Shown here: in pieces, positions 3,486-64,000 of the stretch
Position numbering within the stretch: the stretch's first letter is position 1
Layout: every line of letters starts with the position of its first letter
DNA from: Martinezella tropici
GTDB taxonomy: Bacteria > Pseudomonadota > Alphaproteobacteria > Rhizobiales > Rhizobiaceae
Reading direction: 5' to 3'
NCBI RefSeq assembly: GCF_008370325.1
Contig: NZ_VNIP01000006.1
Location: forward strand, 496,001 to 560,000
DNA length: 64,000 bases
Position numbers and translations under genes: made by a program
The notes under the pieces: model-generated
What the model was told of the DNA's origin: nothing
Database searches by the model: none
What the model saw: the letters and a program-made list of their open reading frames with translations, nothing else

Positions 3486-4148
3486 TTATCCGAATGTCAG
3501 CTTGGTCTTCTGCTGTCTGGCTTCGTCGAAATTCTCCGGCTTCAGCCAGCGTTCGTAGCCGGCCTTCAACCGCGGCCAATCGGTGTCGATTATGGCAAAC
3601 CAGGCGGTGTCGCGGTTTTTACCCTTCGCGACCATGTGCTGGCGGAAGATGCCTTCGAAAACGAAACCAAAGCGTTCGGCCGCCTGCTTCGAGGGTTCGT
3701 TGAGGTTGTTGCACTTCCATTCGAAGCGGCGATAGCCGAGCGTGTCGAAAACATAGGATGCAAACAGATAGAGGGTTTCCGTCGTCACGCGGCTGCGAGC
3801 GATCGCGGGTCCCCAAAGGATGCTGCCGATCTCGATGACGCCATGCGTGTTGTCGATGCGCATCAATGCCTGCCGGCCTTCGGCGCGGCCCGTGCGCTTG
3901 TCGATCGTCGCGAAGAAGAGCGGATCGGTGCCTGACGACGCTTTCTCGAGCCATGTCGAAAAGTCGGCATAGTCCGGCGGCACATGTTCGAAGAGGTAGC
4001 GGAAACGATCTTCGGCGCCAGGGGCACGGGCCGAGGCATAGAGATCCTCGCCATGACGGGCCGGATCGAGCGGTTCGATCCGCGTGTAGTTGCCTTCCAG
4101 AGTAATACGCTCGGGGCGGGGTACGCCCTTCCAGTTCGTCAGATCCAT
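3486..4148 (-). CDS. GNAT family N-acetyltransferase (RimJ/RimL-like)
   Basis: 220-residue GNAT protein of the RimL-like type that acetylates small molecules or protein N-termini. Features: N-terminal ERITLEGNYTRIEPLDPARHG, typical of the group; the central strand-helix IEIGSILWGPAIARSRVTTE; and the C-terminal FEWKCNNLNEPSKQAAERFGFVFEG block, which matches the end of the acetyl-CoA fold in this subfamily. It is convergent with the AAC(6')-like gene, with 25 nt between stops, and the start codon lies 29 nt from the end of the flavin protein gene at 4178-4861. The substrate is unknown. Confidence 0.85.
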   Translation of the reverse strand: MDLTNWKGVPRPERITLEGNYTRIEPLDPARHGEDLYASARAPGAEDRFRYLFEHVPPDYADFSTWLEKASSGTDPLFFATIDKRTGRAEGRQALMRIDNTHGVIEIGSILWGPAIARSRVTTETLYLFASYVFDTLGYRRFEWKCNNLNEPSKQAAERFGFVFEGIFRQHMVAKGKNRDTAWFAIIDTDWPRLKAGYERWLKPENFDEARQQKTKLTFG

Positions 4149-62206: not shown

Positions 62207-62941
62207 TCAGGCCGGCTTGACGCCGCACAGCATTTCCCGCTTGCCGGCGAAGCCTTTGCGCCGCTCGACGATAAAACCAGCCGCCTGCAGGTTTCGGCGC
62301 ACGAAGCCCGCGGCTGCGTAGGTGGCGAAGGTGCCGCCGGGAACGGTCTTGTCGCAGAGTACCTGCATCAGCTCGGGCGACCACATGTCGGCATTGCGTG
62401 ACGGTGCGAAGCCGTCGAGATACCAGGCGTCGAAGCCCGGTTGAGCAAAGCTCACGCCGTTCAGCGCCGGGCCGCAGACGACGCTGAGGCGCGTGTTTTG
62501 ATCGAGCGCCAGCGATACGATGCCTTGCGGATCGTCAGGCCAAGCAGCGACAAGGGCCTGACGTTCGCGATCAATTTCCGGCCAGTGCGACAGAGCCCGG
62601 TCGATCTCATTCGCATGCATGGGATAGAGTTCGAACGACATGAAGTGCAGTTGCGAACCCGGTGCTGCCTGCTGTCGCCACTGGCGCCAGGTCTCGCAGA
62701 AGTTCAGGCCGGTGCCGAAGCCGAGCTCACCGATGAGGAAATCCTGCCGCCCCTGCCAGCGGGTGGGCAGGCCGTTGCCGGCCAGGAAGACGTGACCGCA
62801 TTCCAGCCGGCCGTCGGTCTGGCAATAAAAATGGTCGCCAAAAGCCGCTGAATAGGGCATATCGCCGTCGCGCCATTCGAGCTCCGGGCTTGCCGCATTG
62901 GTTTCGGACGCCTCAGTCCGATCGGAAACTGGATCTGTCAT
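62207..62941 (-). CDS. mnmD: MnmD-type tRNA 5-methylaminomethyl-2-thiouridine methyltransferase
   Basis: 244-residue SAM-dependent methyltransferase homologous to the N-terminal domain of MnmC: LEWRDGDMPYSAAFGDHFYC, FLAGNGLPTRWQGRQDFLIG, ELGFGTGLNFCETWRQWRQQ, and WYLDGFAPSRNADMWSPELM. It completes mnm5U in wobble uridine 34 of certain tRNAs. In E. coli the second half of MnmC is an FAD domain; here an FAD oxidoreductase is encoded divergently, its start sharing CATG at 62939-62942. GTG 62962 is an alternative start that would overlap further. Confidence 0.85.
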   Translation of the reverse strand: MTDPVSDRTEASETNAASPELEWRDGDMPYSAAFGDHFYCQTDGRLECGHVFLAGNGLPTRWQGRQDFLIGELGFGTGLNFCETWRQWRQQAAPGSQLHFMSFELYPMHANEIDRALSHWPEIDRERQALVAAWPDDPQGIVSLALDQNTRLSVVCGPALNGVSFAQPGFDAWYLDGFAPSRNADMWSPELMQVLCDKTVPGGTFATYAAAGFVRRNLQAAGFIVERRKGFAGKREMLCGVKPA

Positions 62942-64000
62942 GGAAAGAGCCGATAATCCCACACGACCCGCCGGTCAATCATCTGTCGATCTGTTGATCG
63001 TTGGCGGCGGGATCATGGGCCTGTGGGCGGCCGTTCATGCCGAGCGTCTCGGCATTCAAGCCTTGCTCGTCGAAGCTGGCCATTTCGGGCAGGGGGCGAG
63101 CGGCGGCCTGCTCGGGGCGCTGATGCCGCATATGCCGGACAAATGGTCTGACAAGAAGCAGTTTCAGTTCGATGCGCTGGTGTCTCTGGAAGAGGAAATC
63201 GCAGCATTGGAGGCAGAGACGGGACTTTCGGCGGGCTACCGTCGCGCCGGCCGTCTGATCCCGCTGCCGAAGCCGCATCTAAGGCAGATTGCGCTTGGGC
63301 ATTCCCGAGATGCGGAAACGCATTGGCGGCTGGATAAACATGAATTTCACTGGCATGTGCTCGATGCGGCGCCCGTTCCAGGCTGGATTGAGCCTTCTGC
63401 TGCCGAAAGCGGATTTGTCTTCGATACTTTGGCGGCGCGCGTTGCGCCGCGTGCGTTGTTGAACGTACTGCGTCAAAGTCTTACCGGAGCAACACATGTC
63501 CAGCTCGCCGAGGGCGTTGCCGTCGAAAGCATCGATCCGGATAGAGGGCTGGCGCGTACGAATGAGGGCGATATCCGCTTCGGACGCTGCATGCTTGCTG
63601 CCGGTCATCGGTCGTTTCCAATCCTCGACGGGTTGACGGAAGGCCGCAAGTCCTCGCTTGGCCAACCGGTGAAGGGACAGGCGGCCATGCTGAAGGCGGA
63701 TGTCGACGGCCGTCTTCCGGTGATCTTCCGCGATGGCCTTTACATCGTTCCGCATGAGAATGGATTGGTCGCGGTCGGCAGCACGAGCGAGAATCGTTTC
63801 GACGACCCGCTGTCGACTGATGGACAGCTCGACGATCTTCTGGCCGCAGCGCGCGCCATGGCGCCGGTTCTGGTCGGCGCGGAGGTGGTGGAGCGCTGGG
63901 CCGGCCTGCGGCCGAAGGCGGTCGATCGCGATCCGATGGTGGGTGCGCATCCCGACCATCCGTCCTTGATTGCATTGACCGGTGGCTTCAAGGTGAGTTT
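62940..64000 (+). CDS. FAD-dependent oxidoreductase, DAO family (3' end off window)
   Basis: 353 codons visible, running off the right edge. Rossmann FAD motif VDLLIVGGGIMGLWAAVHAE, then GASGGLLGALMPHMPDKW, an internal LAAGHRSFPILDGL and GQPVKGQAAMLKADVDG, and DGLYIVPHENGLVAVGSTSE, all DAO/glycine-oxidase type. The GASGGLLGALMP segment recalls the MnmC1 domain GASGN..GALYP. ATG 62940 has GGAT 7 nt upstream; TTG 62994 is an alternative. Either a ThiO/DadA-like oxidase or the separate half of a split MnmC. Confidence 0.8.
   Translation, partial: MERADNPTRPAGQSSVDLLIVGGGIMGLWAAVHAERLGIQALLVEAGHFGQGASGGLLGALMPHMPDKWSDKKQFQFDALVSLEEEIAALEAETGLSAGYRRAGRLIPLPKPHLRQIALGHSRDAETHWRLDKHEFHWHVLDAAPVPGWIEPSAAESGFVFDTLAARVAPRALLNVLRQSLTGATHVQLAEGVAVESIDPDRGLARTNEGDIRFGRCMLAAGHRSFPILDGLTEGRKSSLGQPVKGQAAMLKADVDGRLPVIFRDGLYIVPHENGLVAVGSTSENRFDDPLSTDGQLDDLLAAARAMAPVLVGAEVVERWAGLRPKAVDRDPMVGAHPDHPSLIALTGGFKVS

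Follow-up and report, generated by a model that had tools for sequence, protein, structure and literature searches.

Gene Content and Start Geometry of the Locus

The DNA analyzed here is a window of 64,000 nucleotides (nt) from Martinezella tropici (Rhizobiaceae; assembly GCF_008370325.1, contig NZ_VNIP01000006.1, positions 496,001 to 560,000), the right-hand end of which carries two divergently transcribed genes that meet in a single CATG. The minus-strand gene, mnmD (62207..62941), has an ATG start and encodes a transfer RNA (tRNA) (5-aminomethyl-2-thiouridine)(34) methyltransferase of the MnmC2 type (244 amino acids). The plus-strand gene encodes a flavin adenine dinucleotide (FAD)-dependent oxidoreductase of the DAO superfamily (394 amino acids), hereafter the FAD protein; it occupies 62940..64000 and continues beyond the window edge to 64124 (L003:5124 in the contig DNA fetched for this purpose). 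Read directly from the window, the plus-strand bases are C62939, A62940, T62941, and G62942. The mnmD ATG is 62941-62939 on the minus strand, that of the FAD gene occupies 62940-62942 on the plus strand, and the two open reading frames (ORFs) overlap by two bases within the CATG at 62939..62942. These bases confirm the original prediction, made from the window alone, of two ATGs diverging from one CATG with no intergenic space.

From the 115 relatives recovered in a contig search with the FAD protein, the best 80 were retained as rhizobial loci. All but one of these (79/80) are titled Rhizobiaceae or Rhizobiales, the remaining one (L042) bearing the title of a non-rhizobial metagenome-assembled genome. 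One of the six search peptides was the N-terminus of the FAD protein, and loci of the CATG type may thus be over-represented. The mnmD gene lies directly upstream of the FAD gene and divergent to it in 80/80 loci, and the two ATGs share one CATG in 72/80, a recurrence that lifts the sharing above chance level. In the other eight loci (Sinorhizobium, Ensifer, R. giardinii, and further isolates) the starts are ~40–60 bases apart, and the shared and separate states need two changes on the 80-locus tree. A shared CATG was also observed in L135 and L138, found via MnmD, and in L198, L199, and L201, found via the FAD alignment. Since other families keep the divergent pair with short gaps (~23 bases in L129 and L128, ~95–110 in family f215), the overlap seems to be a derived condition in which the gap has closed. 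The divergence recurs in related rhizobia, and divergent pairing extends beyond them. In one Ensifer adhaerens locus (L089:3996-4040), a 14-codon frame begins with the ATG opposite the mnmD start and terminates in an ATGA that overlaps the FAD start, as judged by eye; this arrangement could couple translation.

The 72 loci include L023 and L086, the coordinates of which are shifted; the FAD-codon and Shine-Dalgarno (SD) counts below use the 70 loci with the CATG at position 4000, and the start-codon counts use 69, L072 with its variant GxGxxG motif having been dropped. Relatedness was handled only by parsimony counts of wobble changes, all other counts being raw loci. Between the FAD ATG and GxGxxG, the FAD-binding motif, 13 different lengths (21–38 codons) were found among the CATG loci (69/70), with the frame open throughout. 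The FAD ORF offers no alternative ATG, GTG, or TTG between the upstream stop and GxGxxG in 17/69 loci, and mnmD likewise lacks an alternative start codon in 34/69. Two other starts were considered and rejected. The in-frame TTG 62994, which the original prediction had named as a possible downstream start of the FAD gene, shows no SD match (duplex energy +0.3), and a TTG stands at that place in 9/70 CATG loci, some other loci having one a few codons away. As a start of mnmD, GTG 62962 would fall between the −10 and −35 elements predicted below, and a GTG was seen there in 2/80 loci (L010 and L045).

Predicted mnmD Promoter Within the FAD Coding Sequence

A predicted promoter of mnmD (62950..62978, minus strand) lies in codons 4–13 of the FAD gene. 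It is formed by TTGACC (62978-62973) and TATCGG (62955-62950), and 8 nt separate its end from the mnmD ATG. The corresponding plus-strand block, GATA...GGTCAA, occurs at a fixed distance downstream of the CATG in 75/80 loci; when read toward mnmD with GTCAA allowed, TTGAC-N18-TATC is found in 79/80. The block fits the rhizobial sigma70 motif published as CTTGAC-N17-CTATAT in an excerpt of PMC2873474, but its −10 part retains only the TAT of CTATAT.

The block is conserved at the level of single wobble bases. By parsimony (70 loci, tree of 80), no third-position change was counted at FAD codons 5, 12, and 13, compared with a median of 19 over 363 core codons, of which 3% have one change or fewer. 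The third base of GGT changed 0 times, compared with a range of 4–33 for 22 Gly codons conserved within this gene; the corresponding figures are 0 versus 4–6 for CAA (three conserved Gln codons) and 0 versus 14–20 for GAT (five conserved Asp codons). Codon usage agrees, GGT being present in 69/70 and CAA in 70/70 loci, whereas over the remainder of the FAD gene they account for 20 and 23% of the Gly and Gln codons, respectively. The spacer codons 8–11 between the boxes change freely at all three positions. In the Sinorhizobium/Ensifer-type loci the same block stands between the two start codons, outside the FAD protein (L085 is without the −10 part). In the predicted structure of a relative that is 92% identical (L010; mean predicted local distance difference test score 90.9), residues 1–12 are disordered. 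Given the frozen wobble bases, the free spacer codons, the position ahead of the FAD start in loci of the Sinorhizobium/Ensifer type, and the disordered residues, the first FAD codons are kept as DNA and not as protein. An mnmD promoter embedded in the FAD coding sequence is strongly suggested.

The predicted −10 hexamer and the in-frame mnmD ATG are separated by 6–8 nt in 78/80 loci (8 nt, 71 loci; 7 nt, 3 loci; 6 nt, 4 loci), and four of the 71 loci have an additional in-frame ATG 2 nt away. An SD-like match at normal spacing precedes the FAD ATG in 66/70 loci and the mnmD ATG in 1/70, compared with 948/4200 random positions (23%). The settings of this test (stretch from −15 to −5, shortened anti-SD string, threshold −3) were chosen after the result of a first, wider test (−20 to −4, longer anti-SD string, threshold −4), which gave no separation (45/70 for FAD, 39/70 for mnmD, 26% at random); the narrow stretch was preferred because the wide one takes in the G-rich −10 region of mnmD. 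Since an SD match was found in 1/70 loci and the ATG follows the −10 element by 6–8 nt, the mnmD messenger RNA (mRNA) is probably leaderless, with a predicted start at the ATG or within ~2 nt of it. For S. meliloti, 171 leaderless mRNAs starting with AUG are documented in an excerpt of PMC3616915; no head-to-head leaderless overlaps were found in the literature searched. In many loci of family f25 (L190–L209), a TGCCYTA-like plus-strand stretch was seen by eye just upstream of mnmD, possibly another −10 near the start.

Putative Control Region of the FAD Gene Inside mnmD

The FAD gene has a weak SD sequence, the GGA of which (62931..62933, plus strand) lies 6 nt before its ATG, in mnmD codons 3–4; in the window itself the duplex score is −3.5, a value obtained from the wider −20 to −4 stretch only. 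Further inside mnmD, a second block of frozen wobble positions (62821..62866, plus strand; mnmD codons 26–41) probably serves the FAD gene as a promoter or regulatory site, to judge from its conservation. Its lowest six-codon windows have means of 4.3–5.5 wobble changes, compared with a median of 18 (parsimony). The block contains a weak sigma70-like match with the right spacing and 7/12 bases (GTCGCC 62834-62839, N17, GCATAT 62857-62862). Two Phe codons within it are TTT in 80/80 loci, whereas TTC accounts for 74% further along mnmD. The second of these codons is free in outgroup families, and L201 has a Tyr codon at the position of the first. The original prediction had placed the promoter and the ribosome site of each gene inside the coding sequence of the other; this agrees with both predicted promoter regions and with the SD sequence of the FAD gene, but not with the ribosome site of mnmD, which is better read as leaderless.

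Identity of the Two Proteins

The assignment of the minus-strand product to the MnmD type is upheld by its score against NF033855 (256.4 bits, cut-off 136). It also matches Pfam Methyltransf_30 and, among sequences in PDB, the N-terminal half of MnmC from Yersinia pestis and Escherichia coli (E 5e-51 to 3e-46). The FAD protein matches Pfam DAO with 148.6 bits. In full length it scores 64.7 bits against the canonical MnmC1 family (TIGR03197), below the cut-off of 174.2, and 123.1 bits against ThiO (TIGR02352), its best-scoring curated family, below the cut-off of 250.8. A separate ThiO is encoded in the same genome (C21:193777, 270.3 bits), and no protein of this genome lies above the MnmC1 cut-off. 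ThiO was accordingly rejected as the identity of the FAD protein, on its score and on the true ThiO elsewhere in the genome. DadA is not among the NCBIfam matches of the protein and was judged by that absence alone. The FAD protein thus does not fall clearly with ThiO or DadA, the grouping that the original prediction had set against a split MnmC. By the curated families tested, it would be nameable only as a generic FAD-dependent oxidoreductase.

A profile of the FAD family scores its members at 260–674 bits and canonical MnmC1 domains at no more than 43 bits; conversely, against E. coli MnmC1 the canonical domains score 28–180 bits and members of the FAD family at most 16. In a tree of 66 proteins, the FAD family forms one clade (support 100/99) and canonical MnmC1 another (93/95). 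An E. coli-type MnmC simply broken in two was rejected, since the FAD half belongs to another clade. The split, divergent MnmC of the original prediction is most likely right with regard to function, as we infer it, and not supported with regard to family membership. In fold, the model of the L010 relative comes nearest to glycine oxidases (Z 43.4 and 42.9), the value for MnmC being Z 37.0. This comparison is indecisive because glycine oxidase is also the nearest structural relative of canonical MnmC1, according to an excerpt of PMC3648344.

Co-occurrence With MnmD

The distribution of the FAD family was studied in two samples of genomes. In the order sample (249 genomes), the family was counted at E 1e-50 or better with 7 candidates scored per genome, and in the phylum sample (349 genomes) at E 1e-35 or better with 5 candidates per genome; four genomes with the FAD family are common to both. 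The resulting counts of FAD genomes are minimum values, and a FAD gene without mnmD could have escaped; they are counts of genomes and not of independent events. A class-wide profile (2/385) was not used as a count, since it scored 4 first-look candidates per genome and missed the f25 genomes G022, G154, and G252, which were found later.

MnmD was found in 35/249 genomes of the order sample (14%) and the FAD family in 27, and all 27 FAD genomes carry MnmD. Where the two genes share a contig they are divergent in 24/24 cases, 23 of them with no more than 231 bases between the matched stretches and one (G474) with ~1.2 kb; in the other 3/27 genomes they lie on separate contigs of assemblies comprising 160 to 770 contigs. 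In each of the families f1, f175, and f179, some genomes have both genes and others have neither. In the phylum sample the FAD family occurs in 30 genomes and MnmD in 28 of these. Eight of the 30 were known earlier for MnmD; among the other 22, 20 have MnmD, in all 20 as a divergent neighbor. One stop within the aligned FAD stretch was observed in G477 of the order sample and in G904, G816, G813, G872, G807, G154, G252, G022, and G911 of the phylum sample. The mnmE gene of the window's genome is nearly full length and scores 248 bits, 4 below the cut-off.

Among the MnmD genomes of the order sample outside the FAD family, G426 has a canonical fusion, and in G419 (L136) and G494 (L137), both of family f208, the gene divergent to mnmD is another, ThiO-like FAD gene. 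The scores of this gene are all under the cut-offs (ThiO 189 and MnmC1 94 bits in L136; 198 and 99 bits in L137), and it may represent a further MnmC(o)-like oxidase that was recruited independently. In two loci of family f180 (L130:897-2099 and L139:195-1394), the gene divergent to mnmD encodes an AlkZ-like DNA glycosylase and not a FAD protein. The eighth MnmD genome outside the FAD family is G460.

Proposed Function and Alternative Explanations

According to an excerpt of PMC9976899 (2023), alphaproteobacteria are without MnmC(o), and carriers of an orphan mnmC(m) probably encode an MnmC(o)-like enzyme that is yet to be identified. Canonical fusions do exist in some genomes of the window's class, as observed in the samples of this analysis, and the canonical MnmC1 domains in these samples are fused to MnmD or codirectional with it. 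The FAD family is a strong candidate for the absent alphaproteobacterial MnmC(o), with an activity predicted from gene context. The FAD protein would oxidize the carboxymethyl side, taking the carboxymethyl group off 5-carboxymethylaminomethyl-(2-thio)uridine at position 34 of the tRNA (cmnm5(s2)U34) and yielding 5-aminomethyl-(2-thio)uridine (nm5(s2)U) and glyoxylate; MnmD would then methylate the nm5 group to give 5-methylaminomethyl-(2-thio)uridine (mnm5(s2)U34). As its own branch of the glycine-oxidase/DAO superfamily, the protein would fill the role of MnmC(o) without being a canonical MnmC1. In the majority of the examined rhizobial loci, the genes would have closed up until their start codons came to share one CATG. 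The mnmD promoter would double as the first ~14 FAD codons, which are disordered in the model, and the mnmD transcript would begin at the ATG or within ~2 nt of it and be translated leaderless, while the FAD mRNA would begin inside mnmD and use the weak SD sequence in mnmD codons 3–4.

We consider it likely that the locus is a divergent two-gene stand-in for the bifunctional MnmC, with embedded promoters and a leaderless mnmD, the promoters, the leaderless start, and the enzymatic step all being predicted. A fuller version, toward which the evidence tips the balance slightly, is that the FAD family is the missing alphaproteobacterial MnmC(o), recruited separately from the glycine-oxidase superfamily, and that in Rhizobiaceae it forms a reciprocal unit with mnmD. 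The N-terminal codons of each gene would then be the promoter/start region of the other, and two consecutive steps of tRNA modification would be expressed from one shared start site. If so, a leaderless and an SD-led mRNA face away from each other, and RNA polymerases compete over the same 120 to 160 bases. The divergent FAD family provides one well-defined candidate for the MnmC(o)-like enzyme predicted in the excerpt of PMC9976899. The shared CATG would be a compact natural case in which a promoter also encodes the N-terminus of the protein on the opposite strand. This case is retained in most of the fetched rhizobial loci, and the Sinorhizobium/Ensifer-type loci give a comparison in which the promoter block lies between the two start codons.

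Several observations weigh against this interpretation. Another DAO protein of the same genome matches the MnmC1 model slightly better, in a partial match (66.6 vs. 62.9 bits); this other protein resembles an L-pipecolate oxidase (246 bits, cut-off 600). The FAD family and canonical MnmC1 are not joined in the tree, and a forced union, with a P-value of 0.41 in the approximately unbiased test (p-AU), is not rejected. Two FAD-binding residues of E. coli MnmC, Ser-304 and Arg-567 (numbering as in the excerpt of PMC3648344), have counterparts in Ser54 and Arg324, which do not vary among 47 sequences, but such equivalents are shared across the superfamily and so are not diagnostic. With respect to distribution, G788 has a strong FAD gene (G788:C15:59404-60489, 337 bits) with no mnmD detected and a divergent neighbor that is a transporter by eye; if the FAD protein works as proposed, nm5U would be the end product in this genome. 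G792 has a weak FAD match (124 bits) without mnmD, in a genome that is 80% complete. The FAD family is lacking in 8/35 MnmD genomes of the order sample, and the divergent neighbor of mnmD is AlkZ-like in G390 and G439, PhyH in G420, and a hexapeptide protein next to the first of the two MnmD genes in G475; MnmD can occur without an adjoining FAD partner. With respect to the control regions, a generic scan of 62700–63200 for sigma70 promoters (E. coli-type) and terminators found neither, the promoter block is missing in L085 and lies 23 nt from the mnmD ATG in L086, and the first frozen Phe codon of the second block is also TTT in most outgroup families, including those where no such FAD gene adjoins, which makes it weak evidence.

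The FAD protein might instead be a ThiO-like glycine/sarcosine oxidase or an oxidase of another small amine, its adjacency to mnmD being an inherited gene order. ThiO as the best curated score (123 bits), glycine oxidases as the nearest folds (Z 43.4 and 42.9 vs. 37.0 for MnmC), and the retention of the FAD gene without mnmD in G788 all point in this direction. However, the score stays below 250.8 in a genome with a true ThiO of 270 bits, the fold does not discriminate, given the same nearest relative of canonical MnmC1 (excerpt of PMC3648344), and a co-occurrence of 27/27, where MnmD is present in 14% of genomes, is not easily accounted for by gene order alone. We therefore regard such an oxidase as unlikely, and the MnmC(o)-like role is preferred.

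The conserved DNA leaves room for two further readings. Instead of serving mnmD as a simple sigma70 promoter, the block in the FAD codons could bind a regulator or act as a promoter in both directions. Its −10 core, GATAATC/GATTATC, would read reasonably on both strands, and its conservation exceeds what is expected of a rhizobial −10, described as poorly conserved in the excerpt of PMC3616915. The −35-like TTGACC and the 18-nt interval between TTGAC and TATC nevertheless point to mnmD in 79/80 loci, and a rightward start would be expected to land downstream of the FAD ATG in CATG loci; this explanation is possible but doubtful, although it has better prospects than the small-amine oxidase. 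Alternatively, translation of the FAD protein might truly begin beyond the frozen block, as in Sinorhizobium, in which case the conserved mnmD start would have given rise to the FAD-frame ATG at the CATG as a by-product. This would suit the disorder of residues 1–12, the evolution of codons 8–11 without protein constraint, and the 8/80 loci that have no shared CATG and a FAD start downstream. It is the least probable of the three, and indeed improbable, because 17/69 CATG loci offer no other ATG, GTG, or TTG before GxGxxG, with the frame open over all 13 lengths, an SD-like sequence stands ahead of the CATG ATG in 66/70, and mnmD forces only the CAT, leaving the next G unforced. Initiation of both genes within the CATG, with a promoter directed toward mnmD, remains the preferred explanation.

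Neighboring Genes

Downstream of the FAD gene and beyond the window edge (L003:6041-13216, window 65041-72216) lies an apparent cluster for purine/urate breakdown, recognized by eye from translations. Its members, likewise assigned by eye, include a polysaccharide-deacetylase-type allantoinase, a 2-oxo-4-hydroxy-4-carboxy-5-ureidoimidazoline (OHCU) decarboxylase, a ureidoglycolate lyase, a 5-hydroxyisourate (HIU) hydrolase, a guanine deaminase, and a membrane urate oxidase with cytochrome c. A small HepT-like ORF (L003:7494-7886; DUF86-type by eye) is located within this cluster and has no evident partner.

Comparison With Known Systems

No description of the mnmD/FAD gene pair was found in the literature searched, nor anything usable on the modified wobble uridine of Agrobacterium/Rhizobium. 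MnmL (YurR) is a stand-alone FAD enzyme. The pair MnmL/MnmM is listed as the replacement of MnmC that makes nm5s2U and mnm5s2U in Gram-positive bacteria, with MnmL given for B. subtilis (excerpt of PMC12548931), and MnmM and MnmC are described as mutually exclusive in occurrence (excerpt of PMC9976899). Bartonella, which is related, stops at cmnm5s2U according to an excerpt of PMC10965804, an end product that would fit a lineage without both genes.

Among the nearest known systems is the bifunctional MnmC (E. coli b2324; PDB 3ps9, 3awi, and 3pvc), in which the methyltransferase half is matched by MnmD and the oxidase half has the same fold as the FAD protein (334 aligned columns, Ser-304 and Arg-567 among them). 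Here, in contrast, the two activities would reside in two proteins encoded by divergent genes, and the FAD half, 19% identical over the alignment and under the MnmC1 cut-off, belongs to another clade. ThiO is the closest in fold and has the best curated score, but the FAD protein falls under its cut-off and the genome has a separate true ThiO. Stand-alone canonical MnmC1 encoded beside MnmD in the same class (L097, L113, and L115) resembles the present locus in having separate adjoining genes, whereas there the FAD gene is codirectional with mnmD and its product belongs to the canonical MnmC1 clade.

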